Shown piece after piece: positions 24,733 to 34,198 of a stretch of 64,000 bases of DNA (positions within the stretch are counted from its first letter, which is position 1; every line of letters begins with the position of its first letter). A program made the translations under genes and the position numbers. Under the pieces are notes generated by a model. The model was not told the DNA's origin. It saw nothing but the letters and a program-made list of their open reading frames with translations, and searched no databases. This stretch comes from Alteriqipengyuania halimionae (GTDB lineage Bacteria; Pseudomonadota; Alphaproteobacteria; Sphingomonadales; Sphingomonadaceae), in assembly GCF_009827575.1 (NCBI RefSeq), contig NZ_WTYR01000001.1, forward strand, positions 1 through 64,000, read 5' to 3'.

Positions 24733-25815
24733 TTAGCCTTGTGCCTTCTCGGCGAATCCCCATGCCAGTTCGGCGAGGGGACCCACGCGTTCGCTCATCG
24801 CCTTGGCATGGGCGGATGAGGCGGTGCCGTCGATCACGCGTTTCTTGATGCCTTGCATGATTCCGGCGAGGCGGAAGAAATTGTAGGCGAAGTACCAGTT
24901 CATGTCGGGCACGCTGTCGCGTCCGGTCGCCTCGCAATAGCGTTCCACGATCGCGTCCAGCTCGGGGATACCAAGGGCGGCGCGATCGAGATCTAGCACG
25001 CCCGAGCGCCCGCCATTGTCGGTCACCCAGGCAAGGCAGAAATAGGTGAAATCGGCCAGCGGATCGCCCAGCGTCGACAGCTCCCAGTCGAGCACGGCGA
25101 GGACCTCGGGCTTGCCTTTGGCCCAGATCATGTTGTCGATCCGATAGTCGCCATGCACCACCGAGGTGCGCGTCTGTTCGGGCACCGAGCGTGCGAGATA
25201 CTCGATCAGGTTTTCCATCGGCGCGAGCGTTTCGGTCTCGCTCATCCGGTACTGCTTGGTCCAGCGGCCGATCTGCCGCTCGAAATAATTGCCCGGCTTG
25301 CCGTAATCTTCGAGACCCGCTTCGCCGAGATCGACCGCGTGCAGACGTGCCAACACATCGGTCATCTGGAAATAATGCGCGCGGCGTTCCTCCGGCGAAT
25401 GATCGGGCATCGCTCCGTTCCAGATCGAATGCCCCTCGACCATGCCCATGACGTAGAACATCGATCCGATGACGTCGTCATCCTCGCACAGCCCGTATTG
25501 CGGGGCGACGGGGAAGCCGACCTTTTCGAGGCCCGACTGGACGCGGAATTCACGGTCCACCGCATGCGCACTCGGCAGCAATTTGCCGAACGGCTTGCGC
25601 CGCAGCACGTAATCGCCCGAGGGCGAGGAAAGCTTGTAGGTCGGGTTGGACTGGCCACCCTTGAACTTGGCTTGGCTCAGCGGTCCTTCGAAACCCGGGA
25701 CGTTTGCACGCATCCATTCGGCGAGGCGATCGAGATCGAGGACGTCCTGACCTTCCGGTTCGACCGTTCCGGTGAAGGCGTTCTGCGCATCGATGGGGGG
25801 CGTGATCTGAGTCAT
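24733..25815 (-). CDS. Phosphotransferase (APH/ACAD10-11-like) family protein
   Basis: 360 residues. Aminoglycoside-phosphotransferase kinase fold: FKGGQSNPTYKLSS (ATP lid), catalytic loop HGDYRIDN (221-228) and metal-binding Asp243 in VLDWELSTLGDP. This subgroup corresponds to the kinase domain of ACAD10/11, which phosphorylates 4-hydroxyacyl-CoAs during their degradation, so a role with the adjacent acyl-CoA dehydrogenase fits. ATG overlaps the stop of the alcohol dehydrogenase gene (ATGA). Confidence 0.92.
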   Translation of the reverse strand: MTQITPPIDAQNAFTGTVEPEGQDVLDLDRLAEWMRANVPGFEGPLSQAKFKGGQSNPTYKLSSPSGDYVLRRKPFGKLLPSAHAVDREFRVQSGLEKVGFPVAPQYGLCEDDDVIGSMFYVMGMVEGHSIWNGAMPDHSPEERRAHYFQMTDVLARLHAVDLGEAGLEDYGKPGNYFERQIGRWTKQYRMSETETLAPMENLIEYLARSVPEQTRTSVVHGDYRIDNMIWAKGKPEVLAVLDWELSTLGDPLADFTYFCLAWVTDNGGRSGVLDLDRAALGIPELDAIVERYCEATGRDSVPDMNWYFAYNFFRLAGIMQGIKKRVIDGTASSAHAKAMSERVGPLAELAWGFAEKAQG

Positions 25816-26900
25816 TGATCGAATACCACCACGCTGCGTGCGCTCGTGCCCTGGCGCATCAGGTCGAAGCCTTCGTTGATCTTCTCCAGCGGAATCCGCT
25901 CGGCGATGATCGTGTCGAGATCGAGCAGACCGCGCAGGTAGAAATCGACGAGCCGCGGCAGATCGACCGGGAAGCGATTCATGCCCATGATCGCGCCTTG
26001 CAGTTTCTTGCCACCGAGCAGGTCCATCGCCCCGAGGCCTACCTTGCAGTCGAGCGGCAGCATCCCGAGGATCGTTGCAGTGCCGCCGCGGCGCAGCAGC
26101 TTGACTGCCATATCGGCGCTCGCTTGACGTCCGACGGCTTCGATCGCGTGGTCGACGCCGCCTTTGGTCAGTTCGATGATTTCCTTGGCCGTGCCGTCTG
26201 CAGTCGGATCGTAGGCATCGGTCGCGCCGAGGACCTTGGCCAGTTCGCGCTTCTCCTCGAGCGGGTCGAGCGCAATCACCCGGCCCGCGCCGGCGATCTT
26301 CGCCGCGTTGATCGCCGCGAGACCAACGCCGCCGCAGCCGACGACCGCAACGGTTTCGCCCGGGACCAGATCGCAGGCGTTGAAAACCGCACCGGCACCC
26401 GTGGTCACCGCGCAGCCGAGCACCGACGCGCGATCCAAAGGCATGTCCTTGTCAACCGCGACGCAGGCATGTTCGTGGATGAGCATCTGTTCGGCAAAGG
26501 CCGACAGGTTCAGCAGTTGGTTGACGGTTTCGCCATCGCCGCGGGTAAGACGCGGAGCATCGCCTTTCGCCCGACGCGTATCACCGCCGAGGCACAACGC
26601 CATGCGCCCGGTGACGCAGAACTCGCAATGGCCGCAAAAGGCGGAGAGACAGGTGACGACGTGATCGCCAGGCTTCACCGTGCGTACTTCGCTGCCGACC
26701 GCCTTGACCACGCCGGCGGCTTCGTGACCCGGTACCAGCGGCAGCGGGTGCGGATAGGCCCCGTCGATGAAATGCAGGTCCGAATGGCACAACCCGCAGG
26801 CATGGGTGCGGATCAGCACCTCATGCGCTTTCGGCTTGGCGATATGCACATCGCCGATTTCGAGCGGGGTGCCGGGCTGTTCGAGAATGGCGGCTTTCAT
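25812..26900 (-). CDS. Zinc-dependent alcohol dehydrogenase
   Basis: 362 residues, medium-chain family. Catalytic zinc ligands Cys38 (GLCHSD) and His59-Glu60 (GHEAAG); structural zinc cysteines 89, 92, 95 and 103. Rossmann motif VVGCGGVGLAAI. Resembles the class III/NDMA-type group, but without a glutathione-specific signature I can verify. Lies between the acyl-CoA dehydrogenase and the phosphotransferase, so it probably oxidises an alcohol intermediate of the same catabolic route. Confidence 0.93.
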   Translation of the reverse strand: MKAAILEQPGTPLEIGDVHIAKPKAHEVLIRTHACGLCHSDLHFIDGAYPHPLPLVPGHEAAGVVKAVGSEVRTVKPGDHVVTCLSAFCGHCEFCVTGRMALCLGGDTRRAKGDAPRLTRGDGETVNQLLNLSAFAEQMLIHEHACVAVDKDMPLDRASVLGCAVTTGAGAVFNACDLVPGETVAVVGCGGVGLAAINAAKIAGAGRVIALDPLEEKRELAKVLGATDAYDPTADGTAKEIIELTKGGVDHAIEAVGRQASADMAVKLLRRGGTATILGMLPLDCKVGLGAMDLLGGKKLQGAIMGMNRFPVDLPRLVDFYLRGLLDLDTIIAERIPLEKINEGFDLMRQGTSARSVVVFDQ

Positions 26901-26943
26901 GTCTTCTCCAATTCTCCCCTCCCGCTTGCGAGAGGGATCGGGG

Positions 26944-28233
26944 TTACCGCGTCACGCCCAGGTCACCCGAGCTGAAGCCATCTTCCTCGGTGTCCGGCGT
27001 GTGCTTGGCGAATTCCATGCGGGCGATCGAACGGGCGTGGACTTCGTCCGGACCGTCGGCGAGGCGCAGCGTGCGCTGTCCGGCATAGGAGCGGGCGAGA
27101 CCGTAATCTTCCGACACACCGCCGCCGCCATGGGCCTGGATCGCATCGTCGATGATCTTCAGCGCCATGTTCGGCGCTTGCACCTTGATCATCGCGATTT
27201 CCTGCTTGGCCGCCTTGTTGCCGACCTTGTCCATCATGTCGGCCGCTTTCAGGCAGAGGAGGCGGGTCATCTCGATATCGATGCGCGCGCGGGCGACGCG
27301 TTCTTCCCACACCGAATGCTTGTAGATCGACTTGCCGAACGCTTCGCGGCTTTGCAGGCGGCGGCACATCTTCTCGAGTGCTTCCTCGGCCGCGCCGATC
27401 GTGCGCATGCAGTGGTGGATACGGCCCGGCCCCAGGCGACCCTGCGCGATCTCGAAGCCGCGACCTTCGCCCAGCAGCATGTTCGATGCCGGGATGCGGA
27501 CATCCTTCAGCTCGATTTCCATATGGCCGTGCGGCGCATCGTCATAGCCGAACACCGGCAGGTGCCGCAGGATCGTGACGCCTTCGGCATCCATCGGCAT
27601 CAGCACCATCGATTGCTGCTGGTGACGCTGCGCACCGAAATCGGTTTTGCCCATCACGATCGCGACCTTGCAGCGCGGATCGCCTGCGCCCGACGACCAC
27701 CATTTGCGGCCGTTGATCACATATTCGTCGCCATCCTTCTCGATGCGGCATTCGATATTGGTTGCGTCCGAACTGGCGACTTGGGGCTCGGTCATCAGGA
27801 AGGCGGAACGGATTTCGCCGTTCATCAGCGGCTCGAGCCATTGGTCCTTCTGCTCGCGCGTGCCGTAGCGGTGGAGCACTTCCATATTCCCGGTATCGGG
27901 TGCCGAGCAGTTGAACACCTCGCTGGCAAAACCGATGCGCCCCATCTCCTCGGCGCACATGGCATATTCGAGATTCGTGAGGCCGGGACCTTCGAATTCG
28001 AAGGTCTCGTCGACATGGTGGTGGCTGTCATTGCGCGGGGGCATGAACAGGTTCCAGATGCCTGCTTCCTTGGCTTCTGCCTTCAGGTCCTGCACCACCT
28101 GGATCACCTTCCAGCGATCGCCCTCGGCGTCCTGCTCGTCATAGGTGGGGACGGCGGGGCGGACCTTCTTCGCGATGAAGTCCCGCACGCGATCGCGCCA
28201 GTAGAGCTGCCGTTCGGTGGGCTGGAAATCCAT
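26944..28233 (-). CDS. Acyl-CoA dehydrogenase (ACAD10/11-like)
   Basis: 429 residues. FAD-dependent alpha,beta-dehydrogenation of acyl-CoAs. [15 protein letters not shown] and [17 protein letters not shown] mark the flavin/substrate domain; the C-terminal helical domain holds [20 protein letters not shown] and the terminal ARMEFAKH. The length and the NRKWW-type segment fit the ACAD10/11 group, which agrees with the phosphotransferase in the same operon. An 18-bp palindrome lies about 70 bases upstream. Confidence 0.95.
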
Positions 28234-28301: not shown

Positions 28302-28319
28302 TTTAAACGGGCGGTTAAA
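28302..28319. promoter_or_regulatory. Palindromic operator candidate, copy A
   Basis: TTTAAACGGGCGGTTAAA, an interrupted inverted repeat (TTTAA...TTAAA). It lies about 70 bases upstream of the acyl-CoA dehydrogenase at 28233 and matches 16 of 18 bases of copy B at 29954-29971. Form and placement fit a TetR-family repressor site. Confidence 0.6.
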
Positions 28320-28337
28320 AGAGCGGCGGATTGATCT

Positions 28338-29867
28338 TCAGGGGCCGACGCTCCGATGGTCGGGATCGGCCCGTACAAATGAATCGAGCGCAGACAGGCG
28401 AGCTTCGTGCGCCGATCGGTCGATTGGGAAGCGATGCAGCCAGAAGGCCGCGATAAGCGCCATCGCCAACGCCCCGCCTCCATAGAGCAGGATCATCGAA
28501 TCGAGTGTGGCCTGCGGAATCGTGCCGGGCTCGGCGTCGGTCGAAAGCCCCGAAAGCGAGATGATTTGCCCGGTGATCAGGATGCCGCCGCCGGTGGCGC
28601 ATTTTTGGATGAACCAGTTACCTGCATAGAACGATCCTTCCGCGCGGCGGCCCGTGCGTTCCTGGAACGCCTCGACGATTTCCGCGACCATCGAATTGGC
28701 GCTGATCATCGCGATGATGCCCATCGTGTTGGCGCATAGCAGGAACCCAAAGAACAACAGCGTCGAGGCGAGGCCGCCCGGTTCGGGCCACAGCCGCACG
28801 AGGTACAGGGCAAAGGGAATAAGCATGATCCCCGCCGAGCATATGACCGCGATTGCTGCGCTTCTGGGCTTGCCGAAGCGGCGATGCATCGGGCTCACGA
28901 GGAAGAACATCAGCACGACGCTGAAGAACAGGATCGCGGGGTAGGCGGTCAGGGCTGGTCTGCCGAATTCCCACACGAACAGGTTGAGGTAGTTCGCGAT
29001 CGAGAAGGTCATGCCTTGTGCGACGTAGGCCGCCATCGCGCCGACGCTCCAGATCAGGAAAGCGCGTTCGGAAAACGCTTCGACGATCTCGCCGAACATG
29101 TTGCGCGCCGTGAATGGCGGCGGTTTGACCGCGGGCAGTCGCGCCACTTCGCGGTGCTGGCCTGCCGCGCTGCCCATCACCGCTAGCGCCATCAGCAATG
29201 CGCCTGCGATTCCGTAGGCTGCATAGCCATCTGGCCGCAGCAGGCCGTCGGCGCCGGGCATGAACACCGTGTAGGCGAGCACCATCATCAGAAGGCCGCC
29301 GAGCCATCCGAACAGAAAGCGCCAGCGAAACAGCGTGGTGCGTTCGTCGTAATCGCCGGTCAGTTCGGGCACCAGCGCGAGTTGCGGGACTTCGCAGCAC
29401 GACAGTAGCAGGCGGACCGATACCGCCATGCCGACGAGGCCCCAGAAGCTTGGCGCTCCTCCGCCCGGCGGGGTCCACAGCAGCGTCCAGGCGATCGCCA
29501 ATGGGATCGGCGCGACATAGAGCCACGGGAGGCGCCGGCCCCAACGCGTATAGGTGCGGTCCGAAAGGTTGCCGATGATCGGATCGCAAAACGCATCGAC
29601 GAGCAACGCAATCAGCAGCGCGTAGCTGACCGTCGATGCCTCCATCCCCAGCACCTGATTGTAGAAGATCAGCAGGAAGAAGCTGAATCCGCCATCCTTG
29701 ATCCCGAACGCGATCGCGCCCGAACCGTGCGCGAGCTTCAGCCACAAGGCCAGCTTGCGCGGCGTGGGCGCGCCGCTTTCATGCGTGAAAGGTGCAGGGT
29801 CTGCGATGTGGCGCCATCCTCTCCAACGGTGCGGGCTGGACCGTAGGCGATCCCCGTCGCGCGTCAA
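28338..29867 (-). CDS. MFS transporter, GPH (glycoside-pentoside-hexuronide) type
   Basis: About 500 residues, twelve transmembrane segments. The entry LKLAHGSGAIAFGIKDGGFS and the loop GNLSDRTYTRWGRRLPWLYV are typical of GPH cation symporters. The start is uncertain: the longest frame opens with TTG at 29867, has no ribosome site, and carries an N-terminus richer in Arg than expected, so translation may begin later. It faces away from the second acyl-CoA dehydrogenase operon and lies next to operator copy B, suggesting uptake of the substrate of this catabolic island. Confidence 0.88.
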   Translation of the reverse strand: MTRDGDRLRSSPHRWRGWRHIADPAPFTHESGAPTPRKLALWLKLAHGSGAIAFGIKDGGFSFFLLIFYNQVLGMEASTVSYALLIALLVDAFCDPIIGNLSDRTYTRWGRRLPWLYVAPIPLAIAWTLLWTPPGGGAPSFWGLVGMAVSVRLLLSCCEVPQLALVPELTGDYDERTTLFRWRFLFGWLGGLLMMVLAYTVFMPGADGLLRPDGYAAYGIAGALLMALAVMGSAAGQHREVARLPAVKPPPFTARNMFGEIVEAFSERAFLIWSVGAMAAYVAQGMTFSIANYLNLFVWEFGRPALTAYPAILFFSVVLMFFLVSPMHRRFGKPRSAAIAVICSAGIMLIPFALYLVRLWPEPGGLASTLLFFGFLLCANTMGIIAMISANSMVAEIVEAFQERTGRRAEGSFYAGNWFIQKCATGGGILITGQIISLSGLSTDAEPGTIPQATLDSMILLYGGGALAMALIAAFWLHRFPIDRSAHEARLSALDSFVRADPDHRSVGP

Positions 29868-29953
29868 TCGTCGCCGCGCCGCGGACGCGGCACGGGAAGC
29901 CGCATTCCCGAAGAAAGCGGAAATTCACGGCTTGCGAGACTCGCCGCGATGCT

Positions 29954-29971
29954 CTTAAACGCGCGGTTAAA
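29954..29971. promoter_or_regulatory. Palindromic operator candidate, copy B
   Basis: CTTAAACGCGCGGTTAAA in the divergent spacer between the MFS gene and the acyl-CoA dehydrogenase at 30006, ending 34 bases before that start codon. Near-identical to copy A, so both operons probably answer to one regulator. Confidence 0.6.
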
Positions 29972-30005: not shown

Positions 30006-31187
30006 ATGGCCCAGGACCTGGACGCCTTCCGCGCCGAAACGCGTGAATGGCTCGAAGCGAGTTGCCCCGAAGAAATGCGTCAGCCGGTGGACGGCGAGGG
30101 CGACGTATATTGGGGCGGCCGCAACGCCGAATTCAAGAACGAGGCGCAGAAAGCCTGGTTCGAAGCCTGTCGCGAAAAGGGCTACACAGTGCCGGACTGG
30201 CCGAAGGAATATGGCGGCGCGGGCCTGTCTCCCGCCGAAGCAAAGGTGCTTCGCCAGGAAATGGCGCGGATCAATGCCCGCCCGCCGCTCTCGAGCTTCG
30301 GCATCTGGATGCTCGGCCCGGCGCTGCTGCATTTCGGCACCGAAGGCCAGAAGCAGCATTTCCTCAACGAGATCGCGCGCGGCGAAATCCGCTGGTGCCA
30401 GGGCTATTCGGAGCCGGGTAGCGGGTCCGATCTCGTCTCGATGCAGACCTTTGGCGAGGACAAGGGCGATCACTGGATCGTCAACGGCCAGAAGATCTGG
30501 ACCTCCTACGCCGACGAGGCCGACTGGATCTTCTGCCTCGTCCGCACCGACAAGAACGACAAGTATCGCGGCATCACCTTCATGCTTTTCGACATGACCA
30601 ATGACGGTGTGTCGACCAAGCCGATCAAGTTGATCAGCGGCAACAGCCCGTTCTGCGAAACCTTCATGGACGACGTGAAGGTGCCGAAAAGCTACGGCGA
30701 GGGCATTCCCGCCTATGTCGGCGAGATCAATCGCGGCTGGGATGTGGCCAAGTATCTGCTCGGCCATGAGCGCGAAATGATTTCCGGCGCCGGCAACAAG
30801 GAACGTTCCGGCTCGCTCGGACCCAAGCTGGCCCGCAACGGAATCGACAATCCGGTGCTGCGCGCGGCGCTTGCCGAATACGATATCGATGCGCTCGCCT
30901 TCGGCTGCATGGGCGAGAAATTTCTCGACGAGCTCAAGGTCGGCAAGGGACATCCCGCGCAACCGAACATGATGAAATACGCCGGGACCGAGCTGAACAA
31001 GCAGCGTCACGAATTGATGATGTCGGCCGGCGGCAGCCGCGCGCTCGAATGGGAGAGCGAGGAAACCAGTGGCGGAACTCCCGCACGTTCCTGGCTGCGG
31101 ACCAAGGCCAACTCGATCGAAGGCGGCACCAGCGAAGTGATGCTGAACGTGATCGCCAAACGCATTCTCGAACTCCCCGGCGCCTGA
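30006..31187 (+). CDS. Acyl-CoA dehydrogenase
   Basis: 393 residues. N-terminal helical domain (MAQDLDAFRAETREWLEASC), flavin domain with WCQGYSEPGSGSDLVSMQTF and VNGQKIWTSYADEADW, and a C-terminal helical bundle with SIEGGTSEVMLNVIAKRILE. ATG 30006 follows GAGAGGAG by six bases. First gene of the plus-strand operon, followed after 15 bases by a second, different acyl-CoA dehydrogenase, an arrangement seen for heteromeric FadE pairs acting on polycyclic or branched substrates. Heteromer formation here is inference. Confidence 0.95.
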   Translation: MAQDLDAFRAETREWLEASCPEEMRQPVDGEGDVYWGGRNAEFKNEAQKAWFEACREKGYTVPDWPKEYGGAGLSPAEAKVLRQEMARINARPPLSSFGIWMLGPALLHFGTEGQKQHFLNEIARGEIRWCQGYSEPGSGSDLVSMQTFGEDKGDHWIVNGQKIWTSYADEADWIFCLVRTDKNDKYRGITFMLFDMTNDGVSTKPIKLISGNSPFCETFMDDVKVPKSYGEGIPAYVGEINRGWDVAKYLLGHEREMISGAGNKERSGSLGPKLARNGIDNPVLRAALAEYDIDALAFGCMGEKFLDELKVGKGHPAQPNMMKYAGTELNKQRHELMMSAGGSRALEWESEETSGGTPARSWLRTKANSIEGGTSEVMLNVIAKRILELPGA

Positions 31188-31202: not shown

Positions 31203-32342
31203 ATGCCTCTTTATCTAGACGAAGATCAGCAGATGCTTGCCGATACGGCGAGCGAATTCATGGCCGAACAGGGCGGAATCGAAAAGCAGCTTCGCCATTG
31301 GCGGGACAAGGGTTGCAAGGACGGTTTCGGCCACGGCCTGTGGGAACAGTTCGCCGAAATGGGCTTCACCGGCATGATGGTCGATGAAGATCATGGTGGG
31401 CTCGGCATGGGTCATGCCGAAGCCGGCATCGTGCTCGAACAAATCGGCCGCAACCTCACCCCGTCGCCCTTCCTCACCAGTTCGGTGATGGCGGCTTCGG
31501 CACTGGACGCCGCGTCGGACGACCTCAAGGGGCGCTGGCTGCCTGGCCTCGTGGAAGGCAAGAGCGTGTTCGCGGTCGCCGTGGACGAGGGGCCCAAGCA
31601 CAATCCGCAGTCGATCAAGACCCGCGCAGAGAAATCGGGCAACGGGTTCAAGCTGACCGGCGCGAAAACGTTCGTCGTGCAGGGCGCGAGTGCCGACATG
31701 CTGGTGGTGGCCGCACGCACCTCGGGCGGCGATGCCGATGACGATGGCATCACTTTGTTCGCCGTACCCAGGGATGCGGCGAACATGACGCAGGACCCGG
31801 TTCGCCTGGTCGACAGCTCGATGGCGAGCCACATCACTTTCGACGGTGTCGAACTTGATGGCGATGCCGTGATCGGTGACGTCGATGGCGGACGTGCGGT
31901 CCTCAACAAAATGCTCTCCGCGGGCCGCGCGGGCGCGGCATCCGAAGGCGTCGGCGTGGCCGGCGGGGCGTTCGACATGACCACCGAATACCTCAAGCAG
32001 CGCAAGCAGTTCGGCAAGCTCATCGGCGAATTCCAGGCGCTCCAGCATCGCGCCGCCCATGTCTACTCGGAACTCGAGATTGCACGAGCCACCGCGATCA
32101 AGGCGGCCCAGATGCTCGACGAGGATGCCGAGAAGGCAGACCTCATCGTGTCGGTCGCCAAGGCCAAGGTCGGCAAGGTTGCGCGCCTCGCCGTGCAGGA
32201 GGGCGTGCAGATGCACGGTGGCATCGGAATGACCGACGAATACGATATCGGCCTGTTCATGAAACGCGACCGTGCGCTGCACGAATTTCTCGGCGATCAT
32301 TATTTCCACGCCGATCGCGTGGCGCGCTTGAGCGGATATTGA
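31203..32342 (+). CDS. Acyl-CoA dehydrogenase, second of a tandem pair
   Basis: 379 residues. MPLYLDEDQQMLADTASEFM at the N-terminus, a shorter middle domain, and the C-terminal motifs GKLIGEFQALQHRAAHVYSE and GVQMHGGIGMTDEYDIGLFM. The flavin domain is less conserved than in the preceding gene (no SEPGSGSD-like motif), as in the non-canonical subunit of heteromeric acyl-CoA dehydrogenases. Starts 15 bases after its partner behind GAGGAAG. Confidence 0.93.
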   Translation: MPLYLDEDQQMLADTASEFMAEQGGIEKQLRHWRDKGCKDGFGHGLWEQFAEMGFTGMMVDEDHGGLGMGHAEAGIVLEQIGRNLTPSPFLTSSVMAASALDAASDDLKGRWLPGLVEGKSVFAVAVDEGPKHNPQSIKTRAEKSGNGFKLTGAKTFVVQGASADMLVVAARTSGGDADDDGITLFAVPRDAANMTQDPVRLVDSSMASHITFDGVELDGDAVIGDVDGGRAVLNKMLSAGRAGAASEGVGVAGGAFDMTTEYLKQRKQFGKLIGEFQALQHRAAHVYSELEIARATAIKAAQMLDEDAEKADLIVSVAKAKVGKVARLAVQEGVQMHGGIGMTDEYDIGLFMKRDRALHEFLGDHYFHADRVARLSGY

Positions 32343-32480: not shown

Positions 32481-32493
32481 AGCAGGAGCAATT

Positions 32494-33303
32494 ATGATGG
32501 ATTTCAGCAAACTCTTCAGCCTCGAAGGACGCATCGCGCTCGTCACCGGCGGTAGCCGCGGGATCGGCAAGATGATCGTCGAAGGCCTGCTCGCCGCGGG
32601 TGCGGAGAAGGTCTACATCGTGGCTCGCAAAAAGGAGCAGGTCGACGCGACCAGCGCCGAACTGGGCGACAAGGTGATCGGCCTGGTCGGCGACCTCAGC
32701 CAGATGGACGGCATCCAGGCGCTGGCCGACGAGCTTTCTTCGCGCGAGGATCGGCTCGACCTGCTGGTCAACAATGCCGGTGCCGCATGGGGTGAACCGT
32801 TCGAGGATTTCAGCGAGGCGGGCTGGGCCAAGACCATGGACCTCAACCTGAAGACGCCGTTCTTCCTCACCCAGAAACTGCTCCCGCTGCTCAAGGCGGC
32901 GGCGAGCGCCGAACGTCCGGCAAAGGTGCTGATGATCGCGAGCATCGACGGGATGAAATCCAACCCCTGGCCAACCTATCCCTACCAGGCGTCGAAGGCG
33001 GGCCTCATCCATCTTACGCGGCGGATGGCGGCCGAGCTGATCCAGCACGGCATCGTCGTCAACGGCATCGGGCCGGGCGCTTTCCCCAGCGACATGAACC
33101 GGGCCGCGCGCGACAATGCCGATAAGGTGGAGCGCGGGATCCCGTCGCACCGCGTCGGCGTGACCGAGGATATGGCTGGCGGCGCGATTTATCTGCTCAG
33201 CCGCGCAGGCGATTACGTGGTCGGCACCACGATCCCGATTGATGGCGGCGTGGTCAATGCCAATATCGGGGCGGGCAATTTCGTCGATCCGTCGGGAGAG
33301 TAA
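32494..33303 (+). CDS. Short-chain dehydrogenase/reductase
   Basis: 269 residues. Nucleotide-binding TGGSRGIG near the N-terminus, NNAG (in LLVNNAGAAWG), and the catalytic YxxxK in YPYQASKAG. The C-terminal IPIDGGVVNANIG is typical. NADP preference is suggested by the basic residues after strand 2 (VARKKEQ). It probably acts on a hydroxyacyl or keto intermediate in the same catabolic operon. ATG 32494 (or 32497) follows CAGGAG. Confidence 0.93.
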   Translation: MMDFSKLFSLEGRIALVTGGSRGIGKMIVEGLLAAGAEKVYIVARKKEQVDATSAELGDKVIGLVGDLSQMDGIQALADELSSREDRLDLLVNNAGAAWGEPFEDFSEAGWAKTMDLNLKTPFFLTQKLLPLLKAAASAERPAKVLMIASIDGMKSNPWPTYPYQASKAGLIHLTRRMAAELIQHGIVVNGIGPGAFPSDMNRAARDNADKVERGIPSHRVGVTEDMAGGAIYLLSRAGDYVVGTTIPIDGGVVNANIGAGNFVDPSGE

Positions 33304-33307
33304 ACCG

Positions 33308-34198
33308 ATGGCCAGCGAGCTTCGCACCGTCGCCGAAGGGCTCTATTTCGGGGAAGGCCCGCGCTGGCATGACGGGCGGCTGTGGTTCTCCGATTTCTAC
33401 GCCCATCGCGTGTGTTCGGTGAGTGAAGCGGGCGGAGATATCCGTGTCGAACTCGAATTCGACGACCAGCCCTCCGGCCTCGGCTGGATGCCCGACGGGT
33501 CGCTGCTGGTGGTCTCTATGGTGCGGCAGCAGGTCTGGCGGCGCTGGCCCGACGGCAGGCTCGAACGACATGCCGATCTGTCCGATATCGCCGGGTTCTG
33601 GTGCAACGACATGGTCGTGGACGGCGAGGGCCGGGCCTATGTTGGCAATTTCGGCTTCGACCTCGATGCGGTGCTGCTCGACAAAGGCCCCGACTGGGTG
33701 CGCGAGAATGGCGAGACCACGTCGCTCGCACTGATCCAGCCCGACGGTACCGTTTCGCTGGCGGCAGGCGAAGAGAAGCTCTTCTTCCCCAACGGCCCGG
33801 TGATTACGCCCGACGGCAAGACCTTTATCGTCGGAGAGACACTGGCGGGCAAACTGACCGCGTTCGATATCGAAGCTGACGGCCATCTTTCCAACCGCCG
33901 CGAATGGGCCAGCACCGATCCGCGCCTTCCCGACGGCATCTGCCTAGACGCTGAAGGCGCAATCTGGATCGCGAACCCTCTTGCGCCAGAATGCGTGCGC
34001 TATGCGCAAGGCGGCGAGGTGCTCGAGGTTGTCGAGACCGGCGAGCTCAATTGCTATGCCTGCATGCTTGGCGGCGCGGACGGGAAAACCCTGTTCATGG
34101 TCGTCGCGCCGACATCGCATCGCGATTTCGCCAGCGCCGAAAGAAAAGGTAAGATCATCGCCTGCAAAGTGGATGTCGCAAGGGCCGGGAGGCCGTAA
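33308..34198 (+). CDS. SMP-30/gluconolactonase-family protein
   Basis: 296 residues. Six-bladed propeller of the SMP-30/LRE family: EGLYFGEGPRWHDGRLWFSD holds the metal-binding Glu, VVDGEGRAYVGNFGFD the middle Asn, and DPRLPDGICLDAEGAIW the Asp. Hydrolyses lactones in relatives. Starts four bases after the SDR stop. As the last gene of the operon it may open a lactone produced in the pathway. Confidence 0.92.
   Translation: MASELRTVAEGLYFGEGPRWHDGRLWFSDFYAHRVCSVSEAGGDIRVELEFDDQPSGLGWMPDGSLLVVSMVRQQVWRRWPDGRLERHADLSDIAGFWCNDMVVDGEGRAYVGNFGFDLDAVLLDKGPDWVRENGETTSLALIQPDGTVSLAAGEEKLFFPNGPVITPDGKTFIVGETLAGKLTAFDIEADGHLSNRREWASTDPRLPDGICLDAEGAIWIANPLAPECVRYAQGGEVLEVVETGELNCYACMLGGADGKTLFMVVAPTSHRDFASAERKGKIIACKVDVARAGRP

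Follow-up and report, generated by a model that had tools for sequence, protein, structure and literature searches.

Paired palindromes before acyl-CoA dehydrogenase operons of Alteriqipengyuania halimionae and a candidate TetR-family regulator of beta-oxidation

Two palindromes and the operons that they precede

Two near-identical 18-bp palindromes lie within the first 64,000 nucleotides of contig NZ_WTYR01000001.1 of Alteriqipengyuania halimionae (the window, i.e., the whole stretch of DNA analysed), each ahead of an operon encoding one or more acyl-CoA dehydrogenases (ACADs). They belong to a motif family with the consensus TTTAAYCG-NN-CGRTTAAA and are very probably operators of a genome-wide beta-oxidation regulon, the regulator being a TetR-family protein encoded outside the window (genome G000, contig C1, 1708711-1709370), orthologous to Saro_1072 of Novosphingobium aromaticivorans and predicted to act as a repressor that an acyl-CoA would release. 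The features of the window that bear on this proposal are as follows.

28302..28319, no strand: candidate operator 1, TTTAAACGGGCGGTTAAA (sequence match and genome scan)
29954..29971, no strand: candidate operator 2, CTTAAACGCGCGGTTAAA (sequence match and genome scan)
26944..28233, minus strand: ACAD11-like acyl-CoA dehydrogenase, leading the operon behind operator 1 (Pfam; phmmer match to 8v3u_A residues 382-768, E 5.5e-139)
25812..26900, minus strand: Zn-dependent alcohol dehydrogenase (Pfam, NCBIfam), sharing 4 bp with the next gene
24733..25815, minus strand: APH-fold kinase, ACAD11 kinase half, LvaA-like (Pfam APH; phmmer 3dxp, E 3.8e-116)
28338..29867, minus strand: MFS_2 (GPH-type) transporter (Pfam MFS_2, E 4.5e-107), start codon uncertain
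30006..31187, plus strand: acyl-CoA dehydrogenase resembling pimC (score below the cut-off), leading the operon behind operator 2 (Pfam, NCBIfam)
31203..32342, plus strand: acyl-CoA dehydrogenase, pimD-like below the cut-off (Pfam, NCBIfam)
32491..33303, plus strand: short-chain dehydrogenase (SDR), probably in the same operon as the ACAD pair (Pfam)
33299..34198, plus strand: SMP-30/gluconolactonase-like protein, possibly in the same operon as the ACAD pair (Pfam)

Both 18-mers are imperfect inverted repeats with half-sites TTTAAACG and TTTAACCG and a spacer of 2 bp. They differ at 2 of the 18 positions, the remaining 16 being the same, and at up to three mismatches on both strands they are the sole two places in the 64 kb to carry the pattern, for which 100 shuffles gave a mean of 0.03 matches. 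The initial annotation had described this pair as matching at 16 bases and as preceding two ACAD starts, and both descriptions hold: operator 1 is found between the MFS stop codon and the ACAD at 26944-28233(-), 68 bp ahead of the ATG of the latter, and operator 2 precedes the ATG of the ACAD at 30006-31187(+) by 34 bp. The second palindrome does occupy the region divergent to the MFS gene, 86 bp upstream of the start of the longest MFS open reading frame (ORF; 29867, -), the true start being uncertain. A counterpart of operator 1 before the ACAD11-like gene, and one of operator 2 before the orthologous ACAD, are present in G059 (a genome of the window's genus), G060, G131 and G026, where the two-site arrangement of the window is found again. 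The MFS_2 gene, whose product falls below the NCBIfam gph cut-off, is a possible third target. Uptake, which the initial annotation had placed under the same control, is possibly included, the one basis for this being the divergent MFS_2 gene, an arrangement recorded in no more than 2 of the 14 other genomes examined.

The second operon opens with two consecutive ACAD genes, of which the one at 31203-32342 probably encodes the partner of the other. The ACAD at 30006-31187 has a sole solved relative at E ≤ 1e-35, namely 4x28 (E 8.3e-37), the mycobacterial ChsE4-ChsE5 enzyme. The first operon unites an APH-fold kinase and an ACAD of the ACAD10/11 branch, and the kinase also matches residues 6-349 of 8v3v_A (phmmer, E 3.6e-68). 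By sequence, therefore, the operon at 24733-28233 is a split ACAD11, with the Zn-dependent alcohol dehydrogenase gene set between those of kinase and ACAD. ACAD10/11 and the bacterial pair LvaA/LvaC are described as phosphorylating 4-hydroxyacyl-CoA and converting it to enoyl-CoA (PMC11342911; PMC12440821). Since kinase and ACAD match the two halves of ACAD11, and given that chemistry, the operon is probably an entry for 4-hydroxy acids. LvaA/LvaC form a bacterial split kinase/ACAD pair (PMC11342911), from which the pair in the window differs by the intervening alcohol dehydrogenase gene and by its fatty-acid motif.

Sites across the genome and in relatives

A genome-wide scan for the motif had been proposed in the initial annotation, with random sites lacking any link to acyl-CoA genes as the outcome that would tell against regulation. 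The source genome (G000, 2.81 Mb, two contigs) was scanned with the degenerate palindrome TTTAAHCGNNCGDTTAAA, the same pattern read backwards serving as control. Three exact sites and nine at no more than one mismatch were found, compared with none for the reversed control, while at up to two mismatches there were 11 sites and two control matches. All 11 adjoin genes of beta-oxidation or lipid metabolism, or genes that are motif-led in relatives too, so that the outcome telling against regulation was not seen.

Sites 1 and 2: the two window operons (ACAD11-like operon; two-ACAD operon)
266829: cytochrome P450
1289780: enoyl-CoA hydratase in one direction, isocitrate-dehydrogenase-like gene on the opposite flank
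1712459: thiolase operon
2261393: acyl-CoA synthetase
2312457: SDR, then ACAD
2431889: ACAD
2529371: two electron transfer flavoprotein (ETF) genes
Two further sites (two mismatches): before a nitronate monooxygenase-like (NMO-like) gene and before a MoxR-like AAA ATPase gene

The last two sites are probably real, because the proteins behind them resemble motif-led proteins of G060 (78% identity for the NMO-like and 88% for the MoxR-like protein). NMO, MoxR-like and P450 genes are motif-led in 6, 4 and 5, respectively, of the 14 other genomes examined. The phrase "both acyl-CoA dehydrogenase operons" of the initial annotation is apt for the window region, which holds three ACADs, two of them consecutive in the second operon, but not for the genome, in which PF02771 has 14 matches. 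Five of these lie in motif-led operons (the three window ACADs and those at 2431999 and 2313451); the remaining nine adjoin no listed site, so the predicted regulon is selective. Its proposed scope was right as to acyl-CoA genes but narrower than what was found, which takes in thiolase, ETF, enoyl-CoA hydratase, acyl-CoA ligase, P450, NMO and MoxR-like ATPase genes. A first pattern, TTAAACGSGCGGTTAA, was rejected at two mismatches as too loose and asymmetric (7+4 matches vs 4+5 in the control), and its match at 2584570, 4.5 kb from a TetR gene (2580080), was dropped as lying outside the 18-bp family.

Targets in relatives were read from 83 of 121 sites at no more than one mismatch (118 from genomes with the TetR protein described below and 3 from G024), spread over 14 other genomes. 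The sites fetched are complete for G060, G131, G087, G059, G026, G108, G023 and G095 and partial for G001 (6/8), G111 (4/16), G136 (1/8), G068 (1/9) and G024 (1/3); G089 contributed a single stretch with two neighbouring sites, of eight. By a hand tally of placement only, in which a few genes were assigned at just 27-36% identity, 49 of the 83 have as their next gene one for a thiolase, an ACAD, an enoyl-CoA hydratase or an acyl-CoA ligase. The 34 sites beyond this strict count include those before NMO (6), P450 (5), MoxR-like (4), GMC (3), SDR (3), APH-like (3) and flavin-monooxygenase-like (2) genes, together with single sites before thiolase-like, PccB-like, pyrroloquinoline quinone (PQQ)-dehydrogenase, saccharopine-dehydrogenase-like, metallo-beta-lactamase (MBL)-fold and tetR genes. 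Among the wider targets Pfam recognises members of the nitronate monooxygenase, AAA ATPase, GMC oxidoreductase, flavin monooxygenase and carboxyltransferase families. A gene of the wider panel follows 77 of the 83 sites, a count that is partly circular as 12 panel representatives come from the same sites; the median distance from these 77 sites to the estimated gene start is 41 bp, and 34 lie within 30 bp of it. From 93 sites the operator is palindromic with the consensus TTTAAYCGNNCGRTTAAA, carries about 26.6 bits of information when both strands are taken into account, and has a nearly invariant T-T-A-A core.

Read from an upstream start codon, the operator encodes F-N-R-x-[VI]-K (L033, L099, L100, L144 and L152), and ORFs with FNRTVK, FNRSVK or FNRTIK near the N-terminus are probably overlong start calls that expose an operator.

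The candidate regulator and its linkage to the motif

The absence of a regulator from the window, as initially annotated, is borne out for the TetR family: none of the 12 TetR_N matches of the genome falls within 1-64000, other regulator families not having been searched for. The initial annotation had suggested a search for a TetR gene carrying the motif, and such a gene is found inside the motif-led thiolase operon. From the site at 1712459 this operon runs through thiolase, SDR, enoyl-CoA hydratase and, as its fourth gene, tetR, followed by phosphorylase-, GST- and MarR-family genes.

G000:C1:1708711-1709370 (L031:6709-7371), minus strand: TetR-family protein, 220 aa, TetR_C_9
L031:4716-5147: MarR gene, downstream of tetR, same direction

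Assignment of the candidate to the TetR family draws on a TetR_C_9 match (Pfam, E 2.1e-57, 193 bits), a weak TetR_N match and an all-helical AlphaFold model (mean predicted local distance difference test score 87.6) near 2QTQ. Its closest solved relative is 2QTQ/2RHA, the Saro_1072 protein of N. aromaticivorans (phmmer E 2.2e-93), with 74-76% identity in Foldseek and, for 2QTQ, 76% over 197 columns and a TM score of 0.86. That crystal structure was released in 2007 under the title "predicted DNA-binding transcriptional regulator". On full-length similarity and gene neighbourhood, the N. aromaticivorans side of the latter being judged by gene number, the candidate is assigned as the ortholog of Saro_1072. 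The numerically next gene of N. aromaticivorans, saro_1073, is a MarR (PMC10725011); a MarR gene lies downstream of tetR in the source genome too. The remote Foldseek neighbours of the model begin with RutR, the best non-ortholog, followed by TetR proteins that include Bacillus subtilis FadR with stearoyl-CoA (3whc) and KstR2.

Linkage between regulator and motif was examined at the tetR operon. A site at no more than two mismatches stands at the thiolase start of this operon in 14 of 14 genomes with a TetR of at least 57% identity. Thiolase, SDR, hydratase and tetR were all called in 8 of 13 loci, spurious overlapping ORFs having masked some of them in the rest. Among named public genomes, 80 of 274 TetR-relative loci were kept, mostly from Novosphingobium, and 66 of the 80 have a site at no more than two mismatches (control 0); where at least 3.1 kb of upstream sequence was available the proportion is 66 of 69. 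In 42 of the named loci the distance from site to thiolase is at most 38 bp, in 19 the SDR of an SDR-tetR operon follows within 95 bp, and in a further five the first scored gene is an SDR 1.2-1.3 kb from the site, a gap of thiolase size. The SDR-tetR arrangement represents another kind of operon for this regulator. Its 19 loci, mostly Novosphingobium, are L201, L209, L219, L224, L228, L230-L233, L235, L236, L240, L243-L245, L248-L250 and L252, and in many of them the operator before the SDR has a changed inner half-site, e.g., CTTAACCGGTTGATTAAA.

Across a family sample of 149 genomes the exact motif occurs in 15, with 44 sites and none for the control, and a TetR of at least 57% identity occurs in 16; relatives of 34-43% identity are found in six more, which lack the exact motif. 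Motif and TetR are both present in 14 genomes, the motif alone in one (G024), the TetR alone in two (G069 and G137) and neither in 132 (Fisher p 1.1e-16, without correction for relatedness). When 30 genomes were scanned at up to one mismatch, each of 13 carriers of the TetR was found to hold 5-16 sites (118 in total, control 7), the 16 lacking a TetR of at least 57% identity none (control 1), and G024 three. In 17 of 26 searched genomes without such a TetR, 24 thiolase loci were found (51-84% identity, with eight at 79-84% being clear orthologs), and none has a site at up to three mismatches within 1.5 kb. Taken together, genome scan, operon linkage and co-occurrence strongly support the single TetR-type regulator of the initial annotation, its binding to the motif being predicted.

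In a class sample of 289 genomes, relatives at E ≤ 1e-25 are confined to one genus of another family, at 38% identity. The TetR relatives of 38-43% identity in G111b, G027 and that other-family genus (L291, L292) have no site at up to two mismatches near the gene, and that of G111c has none within 1.5 kb. In a wider stretch around that same gene, one of two extra TetR relatives (38-43%) in G111, an exact site (L172:7414) lies about 1.7 kb beyond it, between an enoyl-CoA hydratase-like gene and a gene for a 525-aa, weakly ACAD-like protein. A low-identity relative at L293 has one two-mismatch site, the meaning of which is unclear.

Mechanism, alternatives and meaning

The motif family, the genes adjoining it and its co-occurrence and linkage with the TetR are computational observations; the events at the operator are proposed as follows. 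As in the TetR family at large, a dimer would bind TTTAAYCG-NN-CGRTTAAA near the start of each target gene and block transcription sterically, and would likewise control its own thiolase-SDR-enoyl-CoA hydratase-tetR operon. An acyl-CoA made from the growth substrate might then release the protein. Within the window, release would switch on the split-ACAD11 operon (ACAD, Zn-dependent alcohol dehydrogenase and kinase), through which 4-hydroxyacyl-CoAs could enter beta-oxidation, as well as the two-ACAD operon and possibly the MFS_2 transporter. The acyl-CoA signal and the 4-hydroxy-acid substrate are the most tentative parts of this scheme.

Several observations weigh against the proposal. The sites of L132 and L158 (2 of the 83) adjoin no recognisable lipid gene, and several further sites precede oxidoreductase, MBL-fold and APH-like genes, the lipid tie of which is a guess. 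Three (L205, L212 and L251) of the 69 named loci for which sufficient upstream sequence was available are without a site. The Fisher value overstates independence because the co-occurring genomes are related, and the 57% threshold was picked after the gap down to 43% was visible. G024 has motif matches without the TetR, of which the exact one, set within an ORF, looks fortuitous. G069 and G137 carry the TetR and have no exact site anywhere, with only diverged sites (two and three mismatches) near tetR; G027, whose relative of the TetR (42% identity) has almost the same recognition helix, lacks sites at up to one mismatch. The candidate itself scores 21.4 bits for TetR_N (E 7.2e-4), below the 24-bit Pfam cut-off, and its fold does not settle the ligand, because uracil-binding RutR outranks the FadR hits after the ortholog. 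Finally, a sigma-70-like promoter was sought at both window sites, and none was found with which a site might overlap. The two genomes G069 and G137, of genus g69, have the drifted operators CTTAGCCGAGCGGTTAAA and ATTAAGCGTTCGGCTAAA (L279:4725 and L280:2197) and an SDR-tetR operon, with no thiolase in the stretch read; the genus is a possible case of operator drift.

Among the alternatives, a chance or repeat origin of the palindromes without regulatory role could be entertained for two copies alone, and is ruled out by the reversed-pattern controls, both for the 11 sites of the source genome (control 0-2) and for the 44 exact sites in the family sample; with orthologous genes behind the sites in relatives, its likelihood is negligible. 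A weightier objection is that the Saro_1072-type TetR is a passenger and that another regulator common to the clade binds the motif, for instance another TetR or the MarR, whose gene lies downstream in the same direction; the relatedness of the genomes would inflate any such co-occurrence. The MarR of the thiolase operon is nevertheless present in 21 of 25 motif-negative as well as in 14 of 15 motif-positive genomes, and is thereby ruled out. Moreover, the motif is missing even before orthologous thiolases when the TetR is absent (none of the 24 loci), and is present at the TetR's own operon in all 14 genomes that carry it. With TetR-less thiolases lacking the site and MarR occurring in motif-negative genomes, it is the TetR, and neither the thiolase operon nor MarR, that explains the motif, and a passenger role is improbable, the MarR being the rival regulator that was compared across genomes.

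Some TetR proteins activate transcription. An activating or dual action at these sites, in place of plain repression, would be in keeping with this, and no promoter elements were located by which overlap could be judged; the sites nevertheless lie close to the estimated gene start, for which reason a bound dimer is more likely to block than to recruit polymerase, and activation is considered quite unlikely. Rather unlikely, though deserving more weight, is a specialised rather than general fatty-acid regulon, with a steroid or isoprenoid side-chain acyl-CoA or a 4-hydroxyacyl-CoA as inducer. The P450, the pimC/pimD-like ACAD pair and the split ACAD11 among the targets would suit such an inducer, whereas ETF, acyl-CoA ligase, thiolase and enoyl-CoA hydratase genes in the regulon fit ordinary fatty acids.

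The proposed Saro_1072-type repressor can be set beside regulators already described. Bacillus FadR (3whb/3whc, 5gpc/5gp9), which according to its PDB entry titles controls fatty-acid degradation, the kind of role proposed here, shares the TetR fold as a structural neighbour and has one entry with stearoyl-CoA, but differs in having 17-23% identity to the candidate in the fold search; the candidate was rejected as FadR by the NCBIfam FadR(Bac) model (28.6 bits, cut-off 200). PsrA, likewise of the TetR type, governs a regulon for fatty-acid degradation (PMC5343134), and by the NCBIfam Vibrio PsrA model (26.2 vs 300 bits) the candidate is not its ortholog. FadR, PsrA and FadP are named as fatty-acid degradation regulators of Proteobacteria by Leyn et al., 2016, FadP (Ralstonia, Burkholderia, Comamonadaceae) being unique to betaproteobacteria and a predicted TetR where PsrA is absent or biosynthetic; the main text, as available, mentions Sphingomonadales once, for histidine uptake (PMC5343134). 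FadP would represent the same kind of non-orthologous replacement and is set apart here by its described betaproteobacterial range, not by sequence (PMC5343134). EdcR of Caenibius tardaugens, formerly Novosphingobium, is a TetR repressor of the estrogen catabolic cluster; its proposed operator TnnCnnTACnAnTnGTAnnGnnA and TetR_C_11 domain are unlike the motif and domain of the candidate (PMC8700777). EdcR and the bile-salt TetR (PMC12882949) were rejected as regulators of the motif on account of their different proposed operators. No function or operator for Saro_1072, and no description of the regulon, including TTTAATCG with a TetR, was found among the papers listed by searches of the openly accessible literature, subscription papers and RegPrecise lying outside their scope. 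The available text of two Novosphingobium papers (PMC10725011; PMC5443232) was likewise found to hold no description of the regulon, and 2QTQ/2RHA appear in PMC2685735 as test data sets.

TetR regulators of fatty-acid degradation are thus already known as a kind, while the Saro_1072-type regulator and its motif are apparently new. Novosphingobium and its relatives are studied for the degradation of pollutants, steroids and lignin compounds, and the analysis names a probable master regulator of their fatty-acid breakdown, at the same time proposing a probable role and a probable operator for a protein whose crystal structure has been public since 2007. As a tentative generalisation, perhaps slightly short of an even chance, sphingomonads of Novosphingobium and the window's genus may have replaced the known proteobacterial regulators with a master repressor of their own, of the Saro_1072 type, whose regulon joins ETF, thiolase and ligase with P450, flavin-monooxygenase, GMC, paired ACADs and 4-hydroxy-acid entry. 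Were this so, a single acyl-CoA signal would give these bacteria access to many unusual lipids and pollutants as substrates for degradation, and the presence or loss of the regulator would mark the regulatory rewiring of a whole pathway inside one family. Because sister genera keep orthologous thiolases without regulator and without motif, the system is a good case for the study of regulon gain and loss. The TetR and its 18-bp operator could, in addition, supply an acyl-CoA biosensor part.

Elsewhere in the source genome, the region G000:C1:398049-443510 gathers 7 of the 12 TetR_N matches within 45 kb and 3 of the 14 PF02771 matches at 414-420 kb. It has no listed motif site and looks like a separate catabolic island with regulators of its own. 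At G000:C1:411406-412635 (L026:2407-3636, +) a 409-aa protein carries two tandem PF00440 domains in one frame, and the gene adjoining it resembles, by eye, an acyl-CoA ligase.

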